Of a stretch of DNA of 42,119 nt, positions 141-42,119 are shown one piece after another; within the stretch, counting starts at the first letter, position 1, and the number at the start of each line of letters is the position of its first letter. The stretch comes from Oscillospiraceae bacterium (GTDB taxonomy: Bacteria; Bacillota; Clostridia; Monoglobales; WRAG01). The stretch lies in the NCBI GenBank assembly GCA_009780345.1, contig WRAG01000001.1:71267-113385 (forward strand), in the 5' to 3' direction. The position numbers were made by a program, and so were the translations under genes. The notes beneath the pieces are model-generated. The model saw only the letters and a list, made by a program, of their open reading frames with translations. It did no database searches and was not told where the DNA came from.

Positions 141-188
141 GTGTATGCTCCTAATATATTGCCACCTGCGGTGGCGGTGGTTTACTTT

Positions 189-208
189 GTTAAGGACCAG
201 TCCTTAAC
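189..208 (+). repeat. Module A palindrome, copy 1
   Basis: GTTAAGGACCAGTCCTTAAC, a perfect hairpin with an invariant AAGGAC-CA-GTCCTT core. The outer three pairs (GTT/AAC) differ from other copies in a matched way. It is followed by the conserved word AATCCAGCA, which here is separated from the second A hairpin (309-331) by a K insertion. Confidence 0.85.
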
Positions 209-220
209 AATCCAGCATTT

Positions 221-260
221 GAGACTTCGCTTGTGTGATTTTTCACAAGCGGTAGTCGAA
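221..260 (-). repeat. Module K hairpin, copy 1
   Basis: Conserved flanks GAGACTT and GTAGTCGAA enclose the stem CGCTTGTG/CACAAGCG (228-235 with 244-251). The flanks match the other four K copies; the stem does not, but it is self-complementary. It is inserted between the two hairpins of module A. Confidence 0.8.
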
Positions 261-442
261 AAGTGCAGGGGCGTAAGATTTTGCTTGCAAAATCCACAGC
301 CATCTGCCAAACTTTTGTGCGCCAAAAGTTTGACCAAAACCGTCGCCCTCCCCGTCGCGACCCTTCTCGACAAAAAACGTCGGGCGGGCACCCCGCTGGA
401 CATGAGGGCGACAAAAGTTAGCGAACCGCATTCGCGGTAAAT

Positions 443-480
443 GAGACTTAGCTTACGTATTTTGTAAGCTGTAGTCGAAT
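443..480 (-). repeat. Module K hairpin, copy 2
   Basis: GAGACTT, then AGCTTAC (450-456) pairing with GTAAGCT (464-470), then GTAGTCGAATTATCCAG. Part of the minus-strand half of R1. Confidence 0.8.
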
Positions 481-695
481 TATCCAGTGAGCGTAAGCGA
501 GTCGGGAAAGATTAGCGAGATATAATGTCGCGCCCGTTCGAGGGCGACACGCGCCTAAAAGCGCGAGATCTGACTTGATTAGGGTGCTATGTTTGTACTA
601 ACTTTCGCCCGCGGTTCCGCCACAACGGTTTTTGTTGTGGTCAGGGAGGGCGACGGGTTTAGTCAAGTTTTTGACGCGCAAAAACTTGCTGGATT

Positions 696-715
696 GACAA
701 GGACTGGTCCTTGTC
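696..715 (-). repeat. Module A palindrome, copy 2 (inverted)
   Basis: On the minus strand GACAAGGACCAGTCCTTGTC. The core is identical to the other copies and the outer pairs are GAC/GTC. The second A hairpin (CAAGTTTTTG with CAAAAACTTG, 664-688) follows on the minus strand after AATCCAG. Confidence 0.85.
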
Positions 716-789
716 GCGTCGCGCGCGCCCGCGCAAAAGCCCTAGGGCATGCCCTAGAAAGGTTTTAAGCCCTCCGCCGAAGGCGGAAA

Positions 790-1566
790 CTACTTCGGAT
801 ACTCCCCATTCTGCACTTCGTCAATATATTGCGACACGGCTTGTTTAATATCATTATTAATGTTTGCGTATTTCTTCACAAATGACGGAGTGAAGTCGTC
901 GTAAAATCCTAACATATCGTGAAGCACTAATACTTGCCCGTCGCAATATGGACCCGCGCCGATTCCGATGGTTGGAATGCTTATCGATTCTGTTATCTTC
1001 GCCGCGAGCTTGGGCGGAATACATTCCAACACAACCGCGAACGCGCCGGATTCTTCTAATATCTTCGCGTCTTCAATCAATATTTTCGCTTGCTCTTCGG
1101 TTTTACCTTGCATTAAATGACCGCCGAATTGGTTTACTGATTGCGGCGTAAGTCCTAAGTGACCCATTACGGGAATTCCGGCGTTAGTGATTGCGCGGAC
1201 GATCGGAGCGACACATTCGCCGCCTTCAAGTTTTACCGCGCCCGCGCCGGCTTGAATAAGCAAACCTGCGTTTTCGATTGCTTTATATTCGCCTAAATGA
1301 TAGGACAAAAACGGCATATCGGCAACAATCAACGCACGATTTGCTCCGCGCGCGACTGCTTTGGTGTGGTGAAGCATATCTTCCATAGTAACATAGGTGG
1401 TGTTCGGATAGCCTAAAACCACATTCCCCAACGAATCGCCGACTAATATAATATCGCAGTCGCTTTCGTCGATTATTTTCGCGGTTGGATAATCATATGC
1501 GGTAAGCACGGTTATTTTCTTGCTATTCTTCATTTCGCGAATGGTTTTAGTTGTTGTTTTCTTCAA
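790..1566 (-). CDS. panB: 3-methyl-2-oxobutanoate hydroxymethyltransferase
   Basis: A 258-residue protein of normal family length. It transfers a hydroxymethyl group from methylenetetrahydrofolate to 2-oxoisovalerate to make ketopantoate, the first committed step of pantothenate synthesis. Visible signatures are [15 protein letters not shown] (metal/substrate loop), a central [13 protein letters not shown] and the C-terminal GIGAG. The start is a TTG at 1566 behind GAGGGGTTAATTT on the minus strand; no nearby in-frame ATG is better placed. It lies upstream of panC on the same strand, and its stop is followed almost directly by repeat region R1. No convincing promoter was found in the AT-rich gap shared with pyrG. 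Confidence 0.96.
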
Positions 1567-11461: not shown

Positions 11462-11535
11462 GGTTTTGCGCCCTGCGGGCGGGGGTTTAAGGCGCGTTGT
11501 GCCTTAGACCAATGGTGCGCGGGCACGCGCGGCGC

Positions 11536-11555
11536 GGCAAGGACCAGTCCTTGCC
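11536..11555 (+). repeat. Module A palindrome, copy 3
   Basis: GGCAAGGACCAGTCCTTGCC. Same core as copies 1, 2, 4 and 5, but the outer pairs are GGC/GCC. The next hairpin is AAACTTTTG-tgcga-CAAAAGTTT (11564-11586). Confidence 0.85.
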
Positions 11556-11829
11556 AATCCAGCAAACTTTTGTGCGACAAAAGTTTGATCAAAACCGTCG
11601 CCCTCCCCGTCGTGACCCTCCCCGACAAAAAGCGTCGGGCGGGTACCCCGCTGACGGAACCGCGGGCGATACTTAGTGCAAACATAGCACCCTAAGCAAA
11701 ATAGATCTCGCGCTTTTAGGCGCGAGTCGGTCTTAAATGAGCGCAATGCTATATCTCGGTACTTTCTTTTTCCGCGAATGCGGTTATCTGTGGCTTTTCG
11801 TCGCCGCTTGCGGCACAAATCGCGCTTTT

Positions 11830-11940
11830 GGAGTGGCTTCCGAATCCGTCTTTGGGATTCGGCTAATGCCACCCTTGTGAAAACTGCCAAAGAACACGAG
11901 TCGCTTGTTGACGAAGTATGATTTGATGCAGTTGACCGCT
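11830..11940 (+). repeat. Module H, copy 1, inserted in the loop of hairpin G
   Basis: P1: GTGGC...CCGAATCC (11833-11847) pairs with GGATTCGG-CTA-ATGCCAC (11855-11872), with CTA left as a bulge. Linker CCCTTGTGAA. P2: AACTGC (11882-11887) pairs with GCAGTT (11928-11933). Inside it, P3 is GTC-GCTTGTT-GAC (11900-11912), flanked by GA and GAA. The insertion splits the G hairpin arms CACAAATCGC and GCGTTTGTG, which are contiguous in R4. Confidence 0.82.
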
Positions 11941-12043
11941 GCGTTTGTGAACGCCAGGCGACCGGGATTGGCAAGGGCAGAGCCCTTGCCGCTCGTCCGG
12001 CAGGACACAATGCCTACAGAGCCTCGCTCTGAATAATGGGTTT

Positions 12044-16151: not shown

Positions 16152-16862
16152 ATGAAAGAATTTATCGTATATCCCGCAATTGATATTATCGGCGGCTCTG
16201 CCGTGCGTTTGTCACAGGGCGATTACGCGCGAAAGGAAGTTTACCATGCCGATCCGTCGGAAGTCGCGCGGCGTTGGGAAAATGAGGGCGCAAAATTTAT
16301 CCATGTCGTCGATTTAGAAGGCGCAAAAGAGGGAAAATCGTTTAACCGTGAGGCGATCGCAAAAATTTGTGCCGCCGTTTCGGTTCCCGTTCAAGTCGGA
16401 GGGGGAATTCGGAATATGGAAACGGTGGAAGATATGTTTAATATCGGCGTAAGCCGTGTGATACTCGGAACCGCCGCGTTGGCGAATCCCGATTTTGTCA
16501 AGGAAACGGTTGCCAAACACGGCGATAAAATCGCAGTTGGAATTGACGCGAAAGATGGCAAAGTCGCGGTTCAAGGCTGGCTTGAAGTAAGCGATACAGA
16601 CGCAATTGAATTCGCGCGATTGATGGCGCAAATCGGCGTGGCGCATATCATTTATACCGATATTGCAACCGACGGAATGTTGCAAGGCCCGAACGTCGCG
16701 GCAATGCGTGAGATGGCGGAAGCGGTTAGCTTAAACGTTATCGCCTCCGGCGGTGTAAGCTGCACCGCTGACGTAGAAGAGTTGCGACCGACCGGCGTTG
16801 GCGGCGTGATTGTGGGCAAAGCCCTCTACACCGGAGCGGTAACGTTGGGAGATATATTGTAG
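16152..16862 (+). CDS. hisA: ProFAR isomerase (HisA)
   Basis: A 236-residue TIM barrel that isomerises ProFAR to PRFAR, the fourth step of histidine synthesis. Visible: YPAIDIIGGSAVRLSQGDY with the catalytic Asp near residue 10, VQVGGGIRNMETV, RVILGTAAL, and the second-half phosphate site YTDIATDGMLQGPN and VIASGGV. ATG 16152 has AAGGAG at normal spacing. hisF and hisH, its usual neighbours, are absent from this cluster. The stop is followed at once by repeat region R3, which separates it from hisI. Confidence 0.96.
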   Translation: MKEFIVYPAIDIIGGSAVRLSQGDYARKEVYHADPSEVARRWENEGAKFIHVVDLEGAKEGKSFNREAIAKICAAVSVPVQVGGGIRNMETVEDMFNIGVSRVILGTAALANPDFVKETVAKHGDKIAVGIDAKDGKVAVQGWLEVSDTDAIEFARLMAQIGVAHIIYTDIATDGMLQGPNVAAMREMAEAVSLNVIASGGVSCTADVEELRPTGVGGVIVGKALYTGAVTLGDIL

Positions 16863-17043
16863 AAGGCGCCCTGCGGGTGCTTTTGCCGCTGTGGCGGCAG
16901 GCTTTTTCGGGCCCGTCCCGAGGGCATGTGTCACTGACCCGGCGAAAACCGCCGCGGAAACGGCGCAAGGTAATGGAACACAAAATACGTGTTGAAACGA
17001 ACGAATGAAAGAAAAAGTTTTCCCGACTCGCTTCGCTCACTAG

Positions 17044-17087
17044 ATAATTCGGCTACAATTTTGTAAAGCACAACAAAATTAAGTCTC
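17044..17087 (+). repeat. Module K hairpin, copy 3
   Basis: AATTCGGCTAC, AATTTTGT (17057-17064), loop, ACAAAATT (17073-17080), AAGTCTCATTTA. Confidence 0.78.
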
Positions 17088-17340
17088 ATTTATACAGTCA
17101 AAACTTTTTCAACTGTTATCACGCGCTAAAGCGCGGGCTGCCGTTACCGGACGGGCGATAAGGGCTCTGCCCCGTCGCAATAAACTCCGCTCGCTCATTT
17201 TCGGACCAGAAACGTCCGAAAAGCTCGCATGCTCCGTGTATTGCTCCTCTATCCCACAACGTCTACTGCGTTGGGATGTCGTGGGAGCCCTACCCGGTCG
17301 CCTGGCGGTCACAAACGCCCGACTCGCTTCGCTTACTGGA

Positions 17341-17385
17341 TAATTCGACTACGATTTTGCAAAGAATCAGCAAAATCAAGTCTCA
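17341..17385 (+). repeat. Module K hairpin, copy 4
   Basis: TAATTCGACTAC, GATTTTGC (17353-17360), loop, GCAAAATC (17370-17377), AAGTCTCATTTA. Confidence 0.8.
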
Positions 17386-17496
17386 TTTACAAAAAGGCGC
17401 GATTTGTGCCGCAAGCGGCGACGGAAAAACGTAGAGAGCCGCATTCGCGGAAAAATTGCCGAGACATAACATTGTTTCAGTCGAGATTGCGGCTTT

Positions 17497-17604
17497 GGGA
17501 GTGTCGTCGAAAACTTGTTTTCGCTAACGACACCCCTGTGAAAACTGCCAAAGAGAGTGAGCCGCTTTTGGGCGAAACTCGATTTGACGCAGTTGACCAC
17601 TGCC
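17497..17604 (+). repeat. Module H, copy 2
   Basis: P1: GTGTCGT-CGAAAA (17501-17513) with TTTTCG-CTA-ACGACAC (17518-17533), a completely different stem from the other copies but equally paired and with the same CTA bulge. Linker CCCTGTGAA. P2: AACTGC (17543-17548) with GCAGTT (17589-17594). P3: GAGT-GA-GCC (17555-17563), loop GCTTTTG, GGC-GAA-ACTC (17571-17580), fully paired. Confidence 0.83.
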
Positions 17605-17681
17605 GCCGCAGATACTTAACTGATACGTAGATGTTTGCACTATTTTAGCGGCGCGGTTACAATAGCGCCATAGCGCGTTTG

Positions 17682-17795
17682 GGGAGTGGCATCCGGATTG
17701 GTTTTTTAATCCGGCTAATGCCACCCCTGTGAAAACCGCCCGTGAAAGCAAGGCGTTTGTTGCCGTAGCTTGAATGGTTGCGGTTGACCGCCGCC
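17682..17795 (+). repeat. Module H, copy 3
   Basis: P1: GTGGCAT-CCGGATT (17686-17699) with AATCCGG-CTA-ATGCCAC (17708-17724). P2: AACCGC (17734-17739) with GCGGTT (17780-17785), a matched change from AACTGC/GCAGTT. P3: AAGC-AA-GGC (17746-17754), loop GTTTGTT, GCC-GTA-GCTT (17762-17771). Confidence 0.83.
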
Positions 17796-17978
17796 GCAAG
17801 TTTTGTAAAACTTTTCTAAAAGTTTTTCGGGGTGTGTCGAGGGTATTCGATAATACCCTTGACGGTCTTAATGCCCTAGGGCATATCTTGAAATGGTTTT
17901 AAAAACCCGCGCAACGCCCACGCCCGTAGGCGTAAAAAAGGGTCTTAGGACCCGTTCTAAAAAAGGAGCATCACAATC

Positions 17979-20165: not shown

Positions 20166-20242
20166 GGAGCTTTAGCTCAGCTGGTTAGAGCAACCGGCTC
20201 ATAACCGGTTGGTCCGGGGTTCGAGTCCCTGAAGCTCCACCA
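20166..20242 (+). tRNA. tRNA-Met (CAT), elongator
   Basis: A 77-nt cloverleaf with encoded CCA: acceptor GGAGCTT/AAGCTCC, D arm GCTC/GAGC, anticodon stem ACCGG/CCGGT around CTCATAA, T arm CGGGG-TTCGAGT-CCCTG. The fully paired acceptor end distinguishes it from the initiator. A tRNA-Ile read by modified CAT is possible but the body looks like elongator Met. Its 3' end is the attachment site of the element to the right, and no terminator follows directly. Confidence 0.95.
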
Positions 20243-21668
20243 AGCGAGTGTAATACAAACACGGAGAATGGCTATCTTCTACATTGTAGTAGATAGTCAT
20301 TTTTTCGTCTAATAGCTCAACCTTATTTATAAAGGTATCAACAAGACTTTTCCTAAATGTAAGGTCGTTTATGTCGCCGCTTTTGAAACGGCGTAAAAAA
20401 CGCTTGATTTGCTCTACTGTATACATAGGACGTTTCATACTTTCGTTAGCAATTTGCCGTTTCAAATCAGCCAATTCGACTTTCTTTTGGGTTATTCTTT
20501 CTGCTATGATGTCAACAATTTCACCTTGTTCAAGCGCTATCAGCAAATTTTCAATAGCTTTTTCGGTATTTTTCAATTCACGTTTCCAATGTTTAAGATT
20601 GCTGTCATCGTTCATTTCTTTTTCAATTTGTGCCATTATTTTGCGAGCAATGGCATCAATAAATTTATCAGTCAAGACATCTTTGGTTTCAGCAACTACT
20701 AAATCTTCAATTTTCTCTTTTCTAATAGTCTTTTTAGTACATTCTTGTTTGTGGCGGTTAACGCATTTATAGTAATAATATGTGTTCCTCGCCTTGCCTG
20801 TACCGCTAATACCAGTCATTGGCGAATTGCATTGACCGCAAAACAGTTTTGTAGTTAAAATATACTCAACATCAGCTTTTGCCCTTGCAGGAGCTTTTTT
20901 ATTCTTATCCAATATTTTTTGGCAGTCTTCAAATAACAAATCGGATATGATTGGAGGAATAAGTCCTTTCGCTTCTGTGCCACGATAGGTATAGTGTCCT
21001 ATATAGCGTTTATTCGTCAAAATTCGGCGGATACTGTTTTGATTGAATTTAGTATCGTTTGATGTTTTTATTTGATTATCGTTCAGATAATGTATTATTT
21101 CAGCCATTTTCTTTCCGCCTGCGTACATTTGAAATATTTTAGTAACAATAGAGGCATCTTTTCGATGAATTTGAAATTTTTTGTCCTCGTCAATGTAATA
21201 TCCCAATGTAATATTGCCCCCTAACGACAACCCTTTTGACGCACTTATATCCATACCTCGTCTTATCTTCACAGACAATTCATCAGAATAATATGCATCC
21301 ATTGCGTGAATGAAATTTTTAACCATTTTTCCCATAGGTGTATTGTCAATATTTTCAGTTGCAGAAATTAATTCTACATTATTTCTTTTTAGTACAATGC
21401 CGAATGTGACGCTATCTTCGACACTCCTAGCAAACCTATCAAGTTTGTAAACTAAGATGAATTGAAATTGATTTTTACTGCTATCACGCAACATTTTTTG
21501 AAATTGCGGACGTTTATCGTTTGTGCCTGTTGTTGCTCTGTCTATATATTTGTCAATTATAGTATAACCTTTGCGTTCGGCATATTCCTTGCATACTTTC
21601 AACTGCCCCTCGATTGATTGTTCTGTTTGAGAGTGCGAGCTATATCTTGCGTAAATTACTGCGTTCAT
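20199..21668 (-). CDS. Large serine recombinase (integrase of the tRNA-Met element)
   Basis: A 489-residue large serine recombinase. It has a resolvase catalytic domain (AVIYARYSS with the nucleophile Ser near residue 10, VYKLDRFARS), a recombinase domain (GITLGYY-type region, IRRILTNKRYIGHYTYRG), a zinc ribbon (CGQCNSPM...CVNRHKQEC) and a C-terminal coiled coil (about 345-410). Such enzymes integrate and excise mobile elements between short att sites. The last 15 codons lie inside the tRNA-Met gene read antisense, and the stop is there too, so the host tRNA supplies the protein's end. It overlaps the upstream Xre gene by 4 bp (ATGA), which implies one transcript from the promoter at 22334-22362. 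Confidence 0.95.
   Translation of the reverse strand: MNAVIYARYSSHSQTEQSIEGQLKVCKEYAERKGYTIIDKYIDRATTGTNDKRPQFQKMLRDSSKNQFQFILVYKLDRFARSVEDSVTFGIVLKRNNVELISATENIDNTPMGKMVKNFIHAMDAYYSDELSVKIRRGMDISASKGLSLGGNITLGYYIDEDKKFQIHRKDASIVTKIFQMYAGGKKMAEIIHYLNDNQIKTSNDTKFNQNSIRRILTNKRYIGHYTYRGTEAKGLIPPIISDLLFEDCQKILDKNKKAPARAKADVEYILTTKLFCGQCNSPMTGISGTGKARNTYYYYKCVNRHKQECTKKTIRKEKIEDLVVAETKDVLTDKFIDAIARKIMAQIEKEMNDDSNLKHWKRELKNTEKAIENLLIALEQGEIVDIIAERITQKKVELADLKRQIANESMKRPMYTVEQIKRFLRRFKSGDINDLTFRKSLVDTFINKVELLDEKMTIYYNVEDSHSPCLYYTRLVELQGLEPRTNRL
20236..20243 (+). other. Proposed attL core
   Basis: TCCACCAA at the 3' end of tRNA-Met. The same 8 bases occur at 26618-26625. Between them the sequence is AT-rich and carries mobile-element genes. 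Short shared cores at att sites are known for large serine recombinases. Confidence 0.6.
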
Positions 21669-22315
21669 TTCTTGTTCCCTCTTTCTTTGATAAATAATGG
21701 TTTATAAAAATTATTGTAACAATCATCTGCGAGCTGTTCCGTAGTTTTTGTAAATAAATATTTTGCACTATCTATATCAGAAACAGCGATTTCAAAGGGG
21801 ATTCCCTCCTTATCAACTTTCATTTTTTCGTTAAAATAACTTAATAACCTTTTTGAAAAGTTCAACATAAAATTTTGATTTGACAACATATAGTTAAAAA
21901 AATCAATATCATAATATGGAGCTGAGGGATATAATAAGTCCCTTAAACGTCTATTGTATACGTTCCTTAATTGCTTTATAGCGTCATCGGAAAGTCCAAT
22001 CGAAACAGAAATGCCTTTGTCCTCTGGGATTAAAGTTGTTGCTTTTGAAAATCCTAATAAATAATCTAATGATACTCCATAAAATTCAGCAATAGCAAGC
22101 AAATTATTTATGTTTGGAGCTTCTTTCTTATCTGCATTTTCATATTTGCCTAATTGTGTAGCGGAAATAGAAACCTTTGTTTTTTCAAAAATAGCCTTGC
22201 TTAATTCGGCTAATGTATATAATGTTTTCCCATTTGGTCTCCTCAAATCTTCCATTCTGTCTGAAAAAAGTTCTTTGCTAAATAAGCGTTTATTATCCTT
22301 TTTTTCGTTTCCCAT
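21665..22315 (-). CDS. Xre-family regulator of the integration module
   Basis: A 216-residue protein with an N-terminal helix-turn-helix (SKAIFEKTKVSISATQLGKY, NINNLLAIAEFYGVSLDYLLGF) similar to phage CI-like repressors. The C-terminal half (about 95-216) has no domain I recognise and no Ser/Lys LexA-type protease signature. I start it at ATG 22315, where GAGGTGA is 5 bp upstream; the longer frame to 22354 runs back over the promoter. It overlaps the recombinase by 4 bp, so it likely controls integration or excision. Confidence 0.85.
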   Translation of the reverse strand: MGNEKKDNKRLFSKELFSDRMEDLRRPNGKTLYTLAELSKAIFEKTKVSISATQLGKYENADKKEAPNINNLLAIAEFYGVSLDYLLGFSKATTLIPEDKGISVSIGLSDDAIKQLRNVYNRRLRDLLYPSAPYYDIDFFNYMLSNQNFMLNFSKRLLSYFNEKMKVDKEGIPFEIAVSDIDSAKYLFTKTTEQLADDCYNNFYKPLFIKERGNKK

Positions 22316-22333
22316 AACAATCACCTCGAAAAC

Positions 22334-22362
22334 ATTATAATTTATAAAAATCATTTTGTCAA
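22334..22362 (-). promoter_or_regulatory. Promoter of the Xre-recombinase operon
   Basis: On the minus strand TTGACA (22362-22357), 17-bp spacer, TATAAT (22339-22334): a perfect consensus. The transcript would start close to the GAGGTGA site of the Xre gene. Confidence 0.87.
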
Positions 22363-30936: not shown

Positions 30937-30975
30937 AAGTGATCAACTCTCTTTCTTTAATATTATTTTAACTTT

Positions 30976-30995
30976 GTTAAGGACCAGTCCTTAAC
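30976..30995 (+). repeat. Module A palindrome, copy 4
   Basis: GTTAAGGACCAGTCCTTAAC, identical to copy 1, followed by AATTCAGC and the hairpin CAAGTTTTTG-cgcgc-CAAAAACTTG. Confidence 0.85.
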
Positions 30996-31201
30996 AATTC
31001 AGCAAGTTTTTGCGCGCCAAAAACTTGACTAAAAGCGCCTTGCGGACTCACACGCTCAAAAACCGAGCGCACATGGCGCGGAAGCGAGTGCAAACAACTG
31101 CCCCTATCCAAACAATATCTCGCGCTTTTAGGCGCGGGTCGCTCTCGAACGATAGCGGCGGTATATCTCGCTAATCTTTCCCGACTCGCTTCGCTCATTG
31201 G

Positions 31202-31242
31202 ATAATTCGACTACAGCTTACAAAATACGCAAGCTAAGTCTC
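31202..31242 (+). repeat. Module K hairpin, copy 5
   Basis: ATAATTCGACTAC, AGCTTAC (31215-31221), loop, GCAAGCT (31229-31235) with one mismatch, AAGTCTCATTTA, running straight into the F palindrome. Confidence 0.78.
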
Positions 31243-31491
31243 ATTTACCGCGAATGCGGTTCGCTAACCCCGCTTTTCTGTCGCCGCTTACGGCACAAAT
31301 CGCGTTTTTTGCGTTTGTGACCGCCAGGCGACCGGGATTGATAAGGGCAGAGTCCTTATCGCCCGTCCGGTAACGGCAGTCCGCGCTTTAGCGCGTGGCA
31401 TTACCTTATGCCGTTTCCTCGGCGCTTTTTGCCGAATCAGTAACATAAGCTCGCCGCCTCAGCGGCAAAATGGGTTTTAGGGCAAAGCCCT

Positions 31492-32712: not shown

Positions 32713-35700
32713 ATGAAACAGATTCTAGCTCTGATTTTAACTTTCATACTAATTTTCGGAACGCTTCCTATGGCGGCGTTTGGGGAAGTTGAAACATTTG
32801 AAGAACAAGAGACATTCGGAGAATTTGAAACAATTGTACCGTTATCAGGGTTTACGGTCACGTTTATGCCTAACGGCGGCTTGCCGATAGACCCGTCTGT
32901 CGCAATACGTACAACACAGCTTGACGGCACCATTGGCGCCGCCAATATGCCGCCGTCGCAAGCTGTTCTTCGTGACGGATTCATGCTGTTCCACTGGAAC
33001 ACAAATCCGGCGGGCGGCGCGGCAACGGTGTTTACAGGTGAAACGATAGTAGAACAAAACATGAGCGTTTATGCCATTTGGGGTTTGCCGGTGGAGTTTT
33101 TAGGCAATGGCGTAATCCTGCCTATGTATGACAATCCGAGCGATTCGAATGACTATTCGCCTCGTGTTGTTTTGGCAGGGGACAGCGTCGACCAAGCAAC
33201 AAGCATGACTTGGCCGAGCGATCCTGAAAGACAAGGTTTTACATTTGGCGGTTGGTGGAATATGCCAATCAACTTTCTTGAATATCCGACCAATGTGATA
33301 AGTCCCGTCGGCGCTTTGCAATATTTTAGCAACACGCCAATCATAGCAGGGGTTACACTTCACGCACGATGGATTATGAATGACGTTCATACGTTAACTT
33401 TTATTGCAAGCAGTCCGACAGGCGGAGCGTTGCAACCCTGTCAAACCGCTACTCGAAGCGGTGTAGAAGGTATAAGCATTGCTGATTCACACTACGGCCC
33501 GTTTTGGCTTAATCGCGAGCCCGATCCTACTACTCCGCAAGAAAACGGTATCCCGATTGACCGTGCTCAAACCAGCCCGTGGGCAACGCACCCAAGCGCG
33601 ACATTGCACAGTTGGAGATGGCTTCCTCACGGCGGTGGCACGCAGGCCGGAGCAGTTTTTGTAAGCTTATTAAGCCCGCCTCTGCCTCACCTTTTAACAG
33701 AAAGCGCAAATGTATACGCGAACTGGGTATACAGAGTTGCGTTTGAACCGAACGGCGGAAGTTTCGCGAACCCGGATAATCCGGCTAACCCAAGTACCAG
33801 CGCATTTATGCGCGATATTCAAACCGTGAATACAGACGGCACTCCTACCGGCGGCGGAATAGTTGCAAACGATTCAGTAACGTGGGTGACATGGCCGCTT
33901 CCTCCGAATAATATCCAACCGGTAACATTCTTTCCTACTCCTGAGCGAGCGGGCTATACATTTTACGGATGGTGGACGGCGCAAGTTAACCCGCATGACC
34001 ACCCTGACCCGACCGACCCCGGTGATGCCGCGCCCGGCGAGCAATTTTTCCCTAATTCTACTTGGGTAGATTCGTCAAGGCAAGTTTGGGCGAGATGGAT
34101 TCCGGGCGGCGAGGTAAGAGTACGGCTTTTCGTTGAAGACGGTCAATGGGTAGGCTTGACTCCTTTTCAGCAAAATACAAATCACGGTCATGCCCTAACT
34201 GTGAACTCTCCATATCAGTGGAGAGATATACCGTCAGGTTCCAGCATACGTGTTTCGGGTGGAACAAGTGTCGGTCCCGGCGCCTCAAGCGGCAATGCGC
34301 ACGGGTCGCCTGTATACCATCCCATAGGCGGTATGCCGAACGTTCCGATAAGAACCGGATATGTTTTTATGGGCTTTTGGACCGAGCCAAACGGTGGCGG
34401 TACGATATTTAACGGCGCTACCATTGTTAATTCTAATACTGACGTGTTTGCGTATTGGGTGCCTGCAATTACAATCAATCTTAATTTTCACGGCGGAACG
34501 CAGGCAAACGGAAACGCGATAACGCCGGCAAATCATGTTCGCGTTGTTCCATTAGGTTATAGTTTGAGTGAAGTGGCTCAAGCCTGGAGAAATATGAGAG
34601 GAGTCGCTGCCGCCGGAAACGCGGCGCATTTACCTCTTTATTACAGACCTAACGTTTGCACGGGTCTGCGCGAAGGTCTTGGTAATCTTTATGTTTACGG
34701 CGCCGTTCACCAAGGTGGCGTACAGGCAGGTGTGTTTAGCACCGAGCCGGGCGGCTTGGGCGAAAGATTCGGCATGAATACAGTAGTCGATGCGGTATGG
34801 ATGGCTGAACACGGCGCCACCCCTACAACTGCCACGGTTCACGCTGTATGGGCGCCGATAGTTACGTTTAACAGAAATCACAACACATTTGCCTCGGGTC
34901 ATACAAATCTCCAAATCATGCGGCAGGTAACTTGTAATCGATCATTTGCGACCAATACCATCAAAGGTCTGCGAAATCCGACTCCTCCGGTGTTGCCGCC
35001 GGCTCAGACGCCATTAAGCACGCAATGGGCAACGATTGCCAATTGGCCCCAACTTGCGTTAGATGGTCGTGTTTTCCTTGGCTGGTTCACGACGCCGGGT
35101 ACAGCGGCAGACCCAATGGCAGGCACTCGGGTTACCGAAGAATGTATTATAACTCACGACACAACGCTATACGCGCGATTTGCGTTTGGCTTGGAATTCC
35201 ATCCGAACGGCGCGCCGGCCGATATTATCGCGTCGGGAGATCAAATACGTTACGTCGCGTCGGTTCCAAGTCCTGCGCTGGGCGATGCTTGGCCGGACGA
35301 TCCCGTTTGGATCAGAAACGGCGTAAGCGTTCCGTTCCTAGGCTGGAATACGCGTCCTGACGCGGGCGGCATTCCGTATAGCCGTTATTCTCAGATTATG
35401 AACTCGAGAAGATTGTACGCTATTTGGGGAAGCGGCGTGTTTTTTGACGCAAACGGCGGTCGATTTGCTAACAACAACACAATTACCGAGATCCCATTCT
35501 TCGGAGCGCCATTAGGCGAATCATTAGCGACAGTACCAACTCCGACATTTACGACTCCTAACGGAAATTTGGAGTTTAGACACTGGAACACGCAAGAAAG
35601 CACACTTACAACTCCGGGGATAGTGGTTACGACGGCATTGACTCCCGTAGACGCGCAAACATTCTGGGCGCAATGGAATGTACCCATTACATTCAACCCC

Positions 35701-37920
35701 GGAATCGGCGAATGGCCAAGCGGTACGTCCACAGGCAACAGAATTCATCGCGCGCCATACGGCGGAAGCTTGAATCCGGACACGACAGGCTGGAGTTTGG
35801 CAGACAACGATATGCCGTCCAATCCTGCTCTTGCCAATCACACATTTATGGGCTGGCGATATAACGGGCAAGCCGCCAACGCGCCACATATGACGAGCGA
35901 GCAAGTATTGAACGCTTCGCAAGTTATGCCCCGAACATATACGGCGGTATTTTACTTAAATGTAACGTTTGATTTTGCAGGCGGCACATATCCGGAAGGA
36001 GTTCCGGCTGATCGTGCGGCTACAGACCCTTTGATTCGTCCAACGGCGCTTAACGCGGCTGTCGCTTCAAATCGGATACCTCAAATACCTAACCTTGAGC
36101 GTTCGGGCTTTGTATTTATCGGTTGGCGCTATGACAATCAAGCGGCAGGAACGCCTAATTTGCAAGCGGCTGATATTGCGGCTCGAAACGTTACCGTCCC
36201 GCTTACCTATACGGCACAATGGGGACGCGAAGTGCGCTTTAACTTGAACGGCGGAACATATCAACCCGGAATTCCCGCGAATCGTCCGTTTGGAACTGAA
36301 CTTTTAAGACGCGCGGCTCCTGACGGCGGCACTTTGACCGCATTCGGAACTATGCCCGGAAATCCGTCGCGTACAGGTTACCATTTCGTCGGCTGGCAAA
36401 GAGTTACACCGCCGATTTACCCGTCGGTTATTGAAACACCCGAAGAAGTAGGAACCACAGCTCGCGTCACATATGGCGGTTATGAATATATTGCCGTATG
36501 GCATCCTGTCATAACCTTCAACTTAAACGGCGGAAATTATCAGCCCGGAGTTCCGGCAAATCGTCCGAGCGGAACTGAAAACGTAACGCGTATCGTGCCG
36601 ACAGACGGAATGTTGTATACAACTCCTGCGCCAAACAATATGCCGGGCAATCCGGAACGCACAGGACTGGTATTCGCAGGTTGGCGAAACGCCGCCGGCG
36701 ACATTATACAACCGAACGACGTTGCAAACACAGTTCGAACCGTAACCGCAACCTATGTCGCGGTATGGAATCCGGTCATCACGGCGCCGGTAAACAACGC
36801 GCTATCACGGAATATAAGGCAGCCGATTAACGGAACAGGACTTCCGGGCGAAGTCATATATGTTGAAATTCTTGATGAAAATGACGATGTCATAATAAGC
36901 GGAAACACATCGGTTGCCGCTAACGGAACGTGGGTCTTTACGACGGGTATTGATATTATCACTCCAAATCCATATTTGCCATTCAGATTTACCGCAAGAG
37001 CAAGACATGAACATGGGCTTGGTATGATTAGCGATTGGTCAAATGAAGGCAGTTTCTTGCTGAAATCCGCAATCGCTGATCCTACATTCGACGACGAGTT
37101 TGTCGGAACCGAAAGTGATCCGGCGATTGTTGACGAAATAAGGCCGACTATTACCGGAGAAGGCGAGCCCGGCGCGACGGTTACACTCAGAATCTATAAC
37201 GGAGGCAACACGCTTGTAGGCGAATGGGAAATCGACGTTGCGACCGACGGAACATGGAGCTTCACGCCTGATGTTGATCTTGAAGGAAACAAAGACTACA
37301 GAGTCACTATTTCTCAAGAAGACCAGCATGGAAATTACAGCAATGATGTTGACACTTGGATAAGAATTGATACCAGAATCTACAGAAGAATTTCAGGCTT
37401 TGTACTTTATGACGGATGGAGTTTGTATAACCAAGTGCCTACAGCAACGGTAAGACTTTACAACGCGGCTGATAGCACATTTGTGGCTCAAACTACAGCT
37501 TCTGTATTTGTAAATTATGGCTACTTCGAGTTTGTCAGCGTTGATTCAGCGCTAACTTATTACATGGTAATTCATAAGCAAAACCATACCGGCGTAATTG
37601 TGCAAAACATCACTTTTGATCTTGCCGCGTATAATATTTCCGGAAATCCGGACGATATTGGCAATATAGATTATACGAATGAAGCCGGAACAAGATTTTT
37701 ATTGTTCGCCGGCAACATGGACGCGATAAATGACGGTGAAATCAACACACTTGACTGGTCGTTGTTGGTAAATTCGATGTTCCAGACTCATGCTCAAGCT
37801 TTAGAACAAGATTTGAACGATGACGGTCAGATTAACGTTTTGGACCAATCGTTGTTGCTTAACAACTTCTTACAAATAAACAGAGTTGTTCAGCACAACG
37901 CTTTAACTTTAGTGCCTTAA
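32713..37920 (+). CDS. Giant secreted protein: InlB-type repeats, Ig-like domains and dockerin
   Basis: A 1735-residue protein. Signal peptide MKQILALILTFILIFGTLPM, then AAFG. From about 40 to 1350 it has about 13 diverged InlB B-type (Listeria-Bacteroides) repeats, each a VTF-x-NGG strand, a GY-x-F-x-GW turn and a VYAIW-type strand. Repeats 10-13 are closest to each other (NGGTYQPGIPANRP, NGGNYQPGVPANRP). Two Ig-like domains follow (about 1353-1555, TGEGEPGATVTLRIYNGG), then a transthyretin-like domain (RRISGFVLYDG) and a type I dockerin at about 1670-1725 with two calcium loops (DAINDGEINTLD and DLNDDGQINVLD). No SLH or sortase motif is seen, so surface attachment may use a cohesin partner. 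InlB repeats act in adhesion. ATG 32713 has AGAAGGGTG upstream. Confidence 0.92.
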   Translation: MKQILALILTFILIFGTLPMAAFGEVETFEEQETFGEFETIVPLSGFTVTFMPNGGLPIDPSVAIRTTQLDGTIGAANMPPSQAVLRDGFMLFHWNTNPAGGAATVFTGETIVEQNMSVYAIWGLPVEFLGNGVILPMYDNPSDSNDYSPRVVLAGDSVDQATSMTWPSDPERQGFTFGGWWNMPINFLEYPTNVISPVGALQYFSNTPIIAGVTLHARWIMNDVHTLTFIASSPTGGALQPCQTATRSGVEGISIADSHYGPFWLNREPDPTTPQENGIPIDRAQTSPWATHPSATLHSWRWLPHGGGTQAGAVFVSLLSPPLPHLLTESANVYANWVYRVAFEPNGGSFANPDNPANPSTSAFMRDIQTVNTDGTPTGGGIVANDSVTWVTWPLPPNNIQPVTFFPTPERAGYTFYGWWTAQVNPHDHPDPTDPGDAAPGEQFFPNSTWVDSSRQVWARWIPGGEVRVRLFVEDGQWVGLTPFQQNTNHGHALTVNSPYQWRDIPSGSSIRVSGGTSVGPGASSGNAHGSPVYHPIGGMPNVPIRTGYVFMGFWTEPNGGGTIFNGATIVNSNTDVFAYWVPAITINLNFHGGTQANGNAITPANHVRVVPLGYSLSEVAQAWRNMRGVAAAGNAAHLPLYYRPNVCTGLREGLGNLYVYGAVHQGGVQAGVFSTEPGGLGERFGMNTVVDAVWMAEHGATPTTATVHAVWAPIVTFNRNHNTFASGHTNLQIMRQVTCNRSFATNTIKGLRNPTPPVLPPAQTPLSTQWATIANWPQLALDGRVFLGWFTTPGTAADPMAGTRVTEECIITHDTTLYARFAFGLEFHPNGAPADIIASGDQIRYVASVPSPALGDAWPDDPVWIRNGVSVPFLGWNTRPDAGGIPYSRYSQIMNSRRLYAIWGSGVFFDANGGRFANNNTITEIPFFGAPLGESLATVPTPTFTTPNGNLEFRHWNTQESTLTTPGIVVTTALTPVDAQTFWAQWNVPITFNPGIGEWPSGTSTGNRIHRAPYGGSLNPDTTGWSLADNDMPSNPALANHTFMGWRYNGQAANAPHMTSEQVLNASQVMPRTYTAVFYLNVTFDFAGGTYPEGVPADRAATDPLIRPTALNAAVASNRIPQIPNLERSGFVFIGWRYDNQAAGTPNLQAADIAARNVTVPLTYTAQWGREVRFNLNGGTYQPGIPANRPFGTELLRRAAPDGGTLTAFGTMPGNPSRTGYHFVGWQRVTPPIYPSVIETPEEVGTTARVTYGGYEYIAVWHPVITFNLNGGNYQPGVPANRPSGTENVTRIVPTDGMLYTTPAPNNMPGNPERTGLVFAGWRNAAGDIIQPNDVANTVRTVTATYVAVWNPVITAPVNNALSRNIRQPINGTGLPGEVIYVEILDENDDVIISGNTSVAANGTWVFTTGIDIITPNPYLPFRFTARARHEHGLGMISDWSNEGSFLLKSAIADPTFDDEFVGTESDPAIVDEIRPTITGEGEPGATVTLRIYNGGNTLVGEWEIDVATDGTWSFTPDVDLEGNKDYRVTISQEDQHGNYSNDVDTWIRIDTRIYRRISGFVLYDGWSLYNQVPTATVRLYNAADSTFVAQTTASVFVNYGYFEFVSVDSALTYYMVIHKQNHTGVIVQNITFDLAAYNISGNPDDIGNIDYTNEAGTRFLLFAGNMDAINDGEINTLDWSLLVNSMFQTHAQALEQDLNDDGQINVLDQSLLLNNFLQINRVVQHNALTLVP

Positions 37921-41743: not shown

Positions 41744-41872
41744 ACAAAAACTCCTTTTTCGCGCCCAACGGGCGCAGGTTTTTGCCGCCACGGCGGCAGG
41801 CTTTTAGGGCGTTGCCCTAAAAACCATTATTCAGAGCGAGGCTCTGTAGCATTGCGCGGTCGCGCGCGGCGA

Positions 41873-41892
41873 GTCAAGGACCAGTCCTTGAC
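41873..41892 (+). repeat. Module A palindrome, copy 5
   Basis: GTCAAGGACCAGTCCTTGAC, outer pairs GTC/GAC, followed by AATCCAGC and AAACTTTTG-cgcgc-CAAAAGTTT (41901-41923). Confidence 0.85.
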
Positions 41893-42033
41893 AATCCAGC
41901 AAACTTTTGCGCGCCAAAAGTTTGATCAAAACCGGTCGCCCGGCGTTGTCGCAAAACGCTTGCGCTGCGCAACGAATCGGCGACGGTGAGTTCAAACAAC
42001 TCGCCCCTATCCAAACGACATCTCGCGCTTTTA

Positions 42034-42119
42034 GGGAGTGGCATCCGGATTGGTTTTTTAATCCGGCTAATGCCACCCCTGTCAAAACCATCCAAGAACA
42101 CGAGTTGTTTTTTAACGAA
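42034..42119 (+). repeat. Module H, copy 4, inserted in the loop of hairpin D (partial)
   Basis: P1: GTGGCAT-CCGGATT (42038-42051) with AATCCGG-CTA-ATGCCAC (42060-42076). Linker CCCTGTCAA. P3: ACAC-GA-GTT (42098-42106), loop GTTTTTT, AAC-GAA (42114-42119) at the window edge. It interrupts CTCGCGC-TTTTA, the 5' arm and loop of module D. Confidence 0.8.

Follow-up and report, generated by a model that had tools for sequence, protein, structure and literature searches.

Long intergenic regions of an Oscillospiraceae genome as probable mosaics of nested, fold-selected mobile elements

The long intergenic regions of an Oscillospiraceae bacterium are probably made of small mobile elements, selected for their fold and nested in a framework repeat, R, rather than of one large RNA. 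In the window, the stretch of 42,119 nucleotides analysed here, these regions are named R1 to R5. They would be mosaics produced by repeated exact insertion into R and of elements into one another. The best characterised of these, H, would be a non-autonomous element of 104-110 nt, with about 88 copies in its own genome, that inserts beside T-rich sequence and mostly within other hairpins, either in the loop or 2-3 nt into the stem. We infer that H moves as a folded single strand, either of RNA or of single-stranded DNA (ssDNA), and that an enzyme acting in trans recognises it. R and its satellites would be tolerated inside operons, and a host function would be unnecessary to explain them.

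The framework repeat R and its nested elements

An earlier note on this DNA described R1-R5 as a family of modules in a constant order, designated A to I with K and H as optional parts. R2 is indeed a repeat, since as a DNA query it gave 82 HSPs in its own genome, at no fewer than 40 loci and on most contigs. This genome is a 2.05-Mb draft of 59 contigs, 96% complete; several contigs terminate within R, as expected of a repeat that broke the assembly. A search with R4 uncovered a second subtype of R and additional full-length copies. No match to R was obtained with DNA queries in 118 relatives or in 51 members of the order, a sample without a same-family genome, and the exact module-A pattern was absent from the genome_contigs and viral_contigs collections once the genome's own records were left out. 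R is thus apparently private to its lineage, as far as sampled. The window genome encodes a SpoIIGA homologue, and its closest rpsB relatives are Oscillospiraceae/Clostridia MAGs. The elements recognised in the window are as follows.

R1, 171..790, no strand assigned: composite, upstream of panB, with A-[L]-B-C on the plus strand (~181-396) and A-to-F on the minus strand (~421-735)
L element in R1, 217..308, plus strand: 92 nt, two hairpins, between modules A and B (between CCAGC and AAACTTTTG)
K element in R1, 438..505, minus strand: insertion between TTTCC and GCGAATGCGG, within the part that lies on the minus strand
R2, 11462..12043, plus strand: near-complete R element with an H insertion, a mannose-6-phosphate-isomerase-like gene (plus strand) on one side and uvrB (minus strand) on the other
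H in R2, 11829..11939, plus strand: 103.2 bits in cmsearch, in the loop of the G-module hairpin; an empty paralogous site was found, in which CGCGTCTTT is joined to TGCGTTTGTG
R3, 16860..17940, no strand assigned: scrambled mosaic between hisA and hisI (hisI read from the sequence), with J/I reversed, two K, G, F and two H
K-type copy in R3, 17022..17092, plus strand
Second K-type copy in R3, 17318..17391, plus strand: inserted at the I/G boundary
H in R3, 17497..17600, plus strand: 114.1 bits, in the TTTT loop of the hairpin GCGGC-TTTT-GCCGC; empty site in locus L150; RNA fold z -4.8
H in R3, 17682..17791, plus strand: 112.1 bits, inserted between TAGCGCGTTTG and CGCCGC; empty site in L197; RNA fold z -5.4
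R4, 30940..31490, plus strand: second-subtype R element, located in the rpsB-tsf operon, whose genes are on the minus strand
K in R4, 31180-31248: insertion
R5, 41853..42119, plus strand: R element, cut by the window end
H in R5, 42034..42119, plus strand: 63.3 bits, 3' truncated by the window end, in the D-hairpin loop directly after CTCGCGCTTTTA; equivalent empty sites in L152 and L024

The constant order proposed earlier is seen in R2 and R4, in that half of R1 which lies on the minus strand, and in R5 as far as it is visible. It fails for R3, where modules A to D are missing, J/I are reversed and the K and H copies are differently ordered, and R1 as a whole is not one ordered unit, being a composite of two parts on opposite strands. 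H, K and L are missing from many copies of R, and their sites are then uninterrupted; the existence of such uninterrupted sites identifies them as separate precise insertions, not optional modules of one fold.

The core of R, from A to E, has 89% identity across 16 copies and consists of a chain of hairpins: A0 (GCGCG..CGCGC), A (GGCAAGGACCAGTCCTTGCC), B (AAACTTTTG..CAAAAGTTT), C (TCGCCC..GGGCGA, a long stem whose inner hairpin is exchangeable) and D/E. The matched stems reported for module A are present in the sequence (GTT/AAC in R1a and R4, GTC/GAC in R5, GGC/GCC in R2, GAC/GTC in R1b), as are those of module I (GGC/GCC versus GAT/ATC). The change CCCGAC/GTCGGG versus CCACAAC/GTTGTGG, previously assigned to B, is also there but belongs to the C-module hairpin. 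Matched changes affect hairpins A, B and C, one A pair being GC in 8 copies, UA in 5 and AU in 3, although the changes are few overall; in the 16 cores, the A0, A and B stems include 21 double-change cells versus 5.8 +/- 1.8 in shuffles. In module C, whole hairpins have been exchanged. The rpsB-tsf spacer that carries R4 measures 555 bp, compared with at most 233 bp in 78 relatives.

Two other parts of the window were also noted. In 20166-22354, a large serine recombinase gene (20199-21668, minus strand) overlaps the 3' side of a tRNA gene and is accompanied by an HTH gene, so that this part is probably the end of an integrated element. An ORF of 1735 aa (32713-37920), in which Listeria-Bacteroides repeat and Ig-like domains occur, likely encodes a large surface protein.

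Insertion sites and fold of H

For 70 distinct H insertions, the joined flanks were compared against the remaining sampled parts of the window genome. An intact empty paralogous site was found for 57 of the 70, and in these the junctions were exact, with neither target-site duplication (TSD) nor loss. The inserted unit comprises 104-110 nt in two unlike hairpins and is of two types, GGGAG..TTGACCGC and GGC(T/A)GAAC..CTACCG. Units of the GGGAG type lie mostly in hairpin loops (between TGCGGCTTT and TGCCGC, CTCGCGCTTTTA and GGCGCG, or ACGCGGTTT and TTGCGTG), and the GGC(T/A)GAAC type enters 2-3 nt into the 5' arm of stems (between GG and TAAGGGCAGAGCCCTTACC, GG and CAAGGACTGGTCCTTGCC, or GA and CAAGGGTTTC). 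The 5' flank is T-rich, without a fixed motif. H was also found within H (L202, L209) and within K (L037). K (~70 nt) and L (92 nt) each have two hairpins in a layout similar to that of H, occur at more than one site, and look like further families of the same kind. Many H copies in this genome could be duplications of R elements already nested, not separate insertions. Only spurious ORFs over repeats cross H there, where it is intergenic.

The 5' hairpin of H has a bulge of 3 nt. Internal loops are conserved in its 3' hairpin (GA/GA, and GA or AA opposite GAA), which is followed by a short tail, CTACCG, GACCGC or GACGGC. RNAalifold, applied to 19 copies, gave 35 pairs, of which 26 show compensatory changes. 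The covariance search suggested earlier did find further copies, with 140 matches to the H model in the genome (E<=0.1), of which 88 score >=93 bits. Among 82 distinct copies, taken from 100 matches, 98.3% of paired cells pair in the model-fitted alignment and double changes occur at 31 of the 35 pairs; double-change cells number 664, versus 220 in shuffled alignments and 27-80 in slid structures. Because the alignment had been fitted to the model, a phylogeny-aware test was added. This home-made test, in the manner of R-scape, used a FastTree tree, parsimony changes and an APC-corrected G statistic, with a null in which the changes of each branch were redistributed over random columns. Covariation beyond phylogeny was found at 11 of the 35 structural pairs of H (E<0.05) and at no other column pair.

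Changes from one Watson-Crick pair to another dominate overall (124 events). One-sided changes go from Watson-Crick to G.U in 32 events and to A.C in 12, and on short branches of the H tree one-sided changes outnumber double changes, 22 versus 7. This bias towards G.U over A.C, together with the one-sided excess on short branches, argues that selection maintains a fold in the strand of H given here. In energy terms both strands form good folds, whether as RNA or as DNA, and hence the folding strand was chosen by the G.U bias, not by energy, and RNA and ssDNA are indistinguishable for H. Judged from the substitutions among its copies, then, the fold of H is kept by selection on one strand, as RNA or as ssDNA. 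The conserved fold claimed in the earlier note is retained for H in this form, though not as a single large RNA of 550-580 nt.

Relatives of H and candidate mobilising enzymes

The H covariance model matched 21 of 293 other relatives, with a best E of 3e-15. A model of the 3' hairpin (domain 2), built from 26 sequences, had matches in 50 of the 390 other Clostridia genomes in the sample and, outside that class, in 12 Bacillota genomes, and copy number is high in some carriers (at most 13 places were scored per genome). Across genomes, the stems vary, and what is conserved is the tail and the internal loops (GA/GA, GAG or AAG opposite CGAAG); in the model-fitted alignment A2, drawn from other genomes, 92.4% of cells pair and 31 pairs show double changes. 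In Rfam 15, the window gave only tRNAs at the gathering threshold; R2 and R3 gave nothing at E<=5, and eight further loci gave nothing. No description of the R/H family was found in the literature searched, which had partial coverage with few subscription journals. Judged against Rfam and this part of the literature, the H family has no match among known RNA families.

Relatives of H are frequent at the 3' end of rumA/rlmCD, the gene for a 23S rRNA uracil methyltransferase (PF05958 confirmed in four), at L305, L307, L310, L302 and about ten more loci from several Bacillota families. There the 5' arm of the first hairpin is itself a coding tail (..HVETVVLLTK stop), and the displaced old tail (AETVCLLSK..) follows the element, which thus restores the gene it has entered. 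In most species the restored tail and the displaced one are separated by synonymous changes, which indicates that the element brings its own tail; a fold-back copy of the target was rejected on the same ground. L318 (G529), where the tails are identical, does not discriminate between these two readings; its rumA element lies within an apparent identical repeat of 28 bp from the gene tail, an arrangement due either to a recent insertion that carried the tail or to duplication of the target. In L308:11234-11514 (G389), the element is tandemly duplicated directly 3' of a rumA-like tail. On contig C61 of G405 (L302 and L264:2092-6625), about 20 kb of small plus-strand ORFs lie downstream of rumA and a domain-2 element, followed by two more domain-2 elements around ABC-F-like ATPase, radical-SAM RlmN/Cfr-like and chloramphenicol-phosphotransferase-like proteins. 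A plasmid search with one rumA-type element gave no match.

Some relatives of H occur in or adjoining tRNA genes (L235, L314). Two identical 116-bp copies were seen in one provirus contig (L255:3396-3511 and L256:2055-2170 of IMGVR_UViG_2593339255_000003), in two different ORFs and read in frame, which speaks for mobility outside the window genome; in-frame copies were seen only in this contig and in G193. In L258:1643-8491 (G075), a large serine recombinase gene ends just before one H-like element, then come regulatory genes and a ParE-like toxin pair, and a second H-like element lies 5 kb on, so that this region resembles an integrated element bounded on each side by an H-like unit.

None of the enzymes considered, Y1, RAYT, IS110 and reverse transcriptase, consistently accompanies H in the carriers sampled, although draft genomes can hide genes and such absences are weak evidence. 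The only Y1_Tnp gene of the window genome is IS200-like and has an internal stop, and Y1 genes are absent from the H-rich genomes G268 and G409. RAYT-like genes were found in 5-6 of 30 carriers, and none in the window genome or in the H-rich G268, G409 and G806. G418 (L289) has a RAYT-like gene with two domain-2 hairpins ~0.4-0.6 kb downstream (within ~1 kb), in a locus with several other palindromic repeat families; as this genome is full of repeats, the proximity is possibly due to chance. IS110 was found in only 6 of 18 carriers, not including the window genome, and reverse transcriptase in 8 of 18, the window genome having one truncated group-II-type ORF. Both were rejected as mobilisers, each being missing from most carriers. 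A truncated group-II-type reverse transcriptase ORF runs off the end of contig C9 of G000 (L334), for which reason it probably belongs to another multi-copy element.

Alternative explanations and known systems

The reading of the earlier note, that these regions are a large structured RNA or an mRNA-acting element selected by the host, draws on the strand-specific fold, strong covariation and conserved internal loops of H and on the presence of R within operons such as rpsB-tsf and his, where it is presumably transcribed. It is nevertheless improbable, since relative to co-directional genes both R (14 versus 12, without bias) and H (20 versus 11) occur in either orientation, the arrangements are scrambled, as in R3, and nested, no common gene class is involved, R is confined to one genome and Rfam gave nothing even at E<=5. 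Template switching or arm-to-arm conversion, by which matched stem changes would arise without selection on the fold, would account for the 124 Watson-Crick double events, for the seven double changes on short branches and for the swapping of whole hairpins in module C. It does not predict the one-sided, G.U-biased changes of H, nor the internal loops and bulges conserved across genomes, and is very improbable as an explanation of H; in the A and B stems of R the changes are too few to tell against it.

If H is mobile, as the nested-element reading supposes, the most plausible known model of its movement, held tentatively, invokes an enzyme of the HUH/Y1 type (REP-RAYT-like) that acts on hairpins of ssDNA. 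In its explicit form, the modules would be REP-type elements, hairpins tagged with GTAG or CGTC and moved by RAYT on ssDNA. The absence of a TSD and the single folding strand fit transposition as ssDNA, and on the complementary strand the 3' hairpin is directly preceded by GCNGTAG, GCGGTC or GCCGTC, which resemble REP tags (PMC3733652). This likeness of the tail, along with the G418 locus, keeps the model alive as a possible though doubtful one, given that RAYT-like genes are missing from the window genome and from the three H-rich genomes, that proximity in repeat-rich G418 may be fortuitous, and that the two unlike hairpins of H are neither a palindrome of 20-40 nt nor an inverted REP pair. 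It is unlikely that the modules are MITEs derived from IS200/IS605 (PATE-like) or from a classical DNA transposon. The elements are small, palindromic, nested and in high copy, and the genome holds an IS200-like pseudogene; IS200/IS605 elements insert without TSD. However, no terminal inverted repeats are common to both ends, the ends of H are, by eye, unlike those of the resident IS200-like copy, and Y1 genes are missing from several carriers. It is conceivable, though again doubtful, that H and its Bacillota relatives form a new class of minimal mobile elements. An enzyme not belonging to the known REP-RAYT, IS605, IS110 and group II systems would act on their folded strand, whether RNA or ssDNA, and insert it exactly and without duplication into hairpins; at rumA/rlmCD such an element would carry its own copy of the gene 3' end as the 5' arm of the first hairpin, restoring the gene.

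The origin and mobiliser of short structured intergenic repeats have long been an open question, BOX and ERIC having no known mobiliser. For H, now that its boundaries, its empty sites, its preferred targets, the strand that folds and a homologous domain shared across the phylum are defined, both the mobiliser and the choice between RNA and ssDNA become directly testable. The case also shows that strong covariation in repeat families can signal mobile elements rather than host regulatory RNAs.

H resembles REP and REPIN sequences in being a dispersed, mostly intergenic hairpin repeat whose imperfect stem has a short unpaired tag at its foot (PMC3733652, PMC3116915). REPs carry GTAG and CGTC tags (PMC3733652), and many H copies have the tails CTACCG, CTACTGC, CTACGGC or GACGGC, whose complement contains GTAG or CGTC, others having GACCGC, CACTGC or GAACCGC. 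It differs from them in its length of ~105 nt, its two unlike hairpins, its demonstrable empty sites in hairpins and the lack of RAYT in the window genome. Features of classical MITEs are missing, as the 5' end is GGGAG or GGC and the 3' end ACCGC or TACCG, no sequence relationship exists between the two hairpins, and none of the 57 insertions with empty sites shows a TSD. An IS200/IS605-derived (PATE) element would be expected to lack a TSD and to lie 3' of a fixed tetra- or pentanucleotide; H has no TSD, and its T-rich 5' flank is without a fixed motif.

Hairpins are known insertion targets of group IIC introns. They are also targeted, as by H, by the insertion sequences that enter REP hairpins (PMC1525189); both of these are protein-coding and far longer, whereas H encodes nothing. 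The parallel with BOX drawn earlier holds as an analogy and not beyond it. Pneumococcal BOX elements, together with RUP/SPRITE in that genome, are also modular intergenic repeats in a Firmicute, predicted to fold when transcribed, and the BOX mobiliser is unknown (PMC3049150); by its description, BOX has a fixed A-B(n)-C structure, whereas the elements described here are separate and nested by insertion. The double-hairpin elements of fungal mitochondria, two-hairpinned like H, and the hairpin elements of sponge mitochondria are probably mobile, intergenic and in high copy, and no report of an internal-loop fold conserved across families was found there (PMC2800124). They belong to organelle DNA, and the likeness is one of description. 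Rickettsia palindromic elements are palindromic too and lie inside ORFs, read in frame, whereas H in the genome of the window lies between genes.
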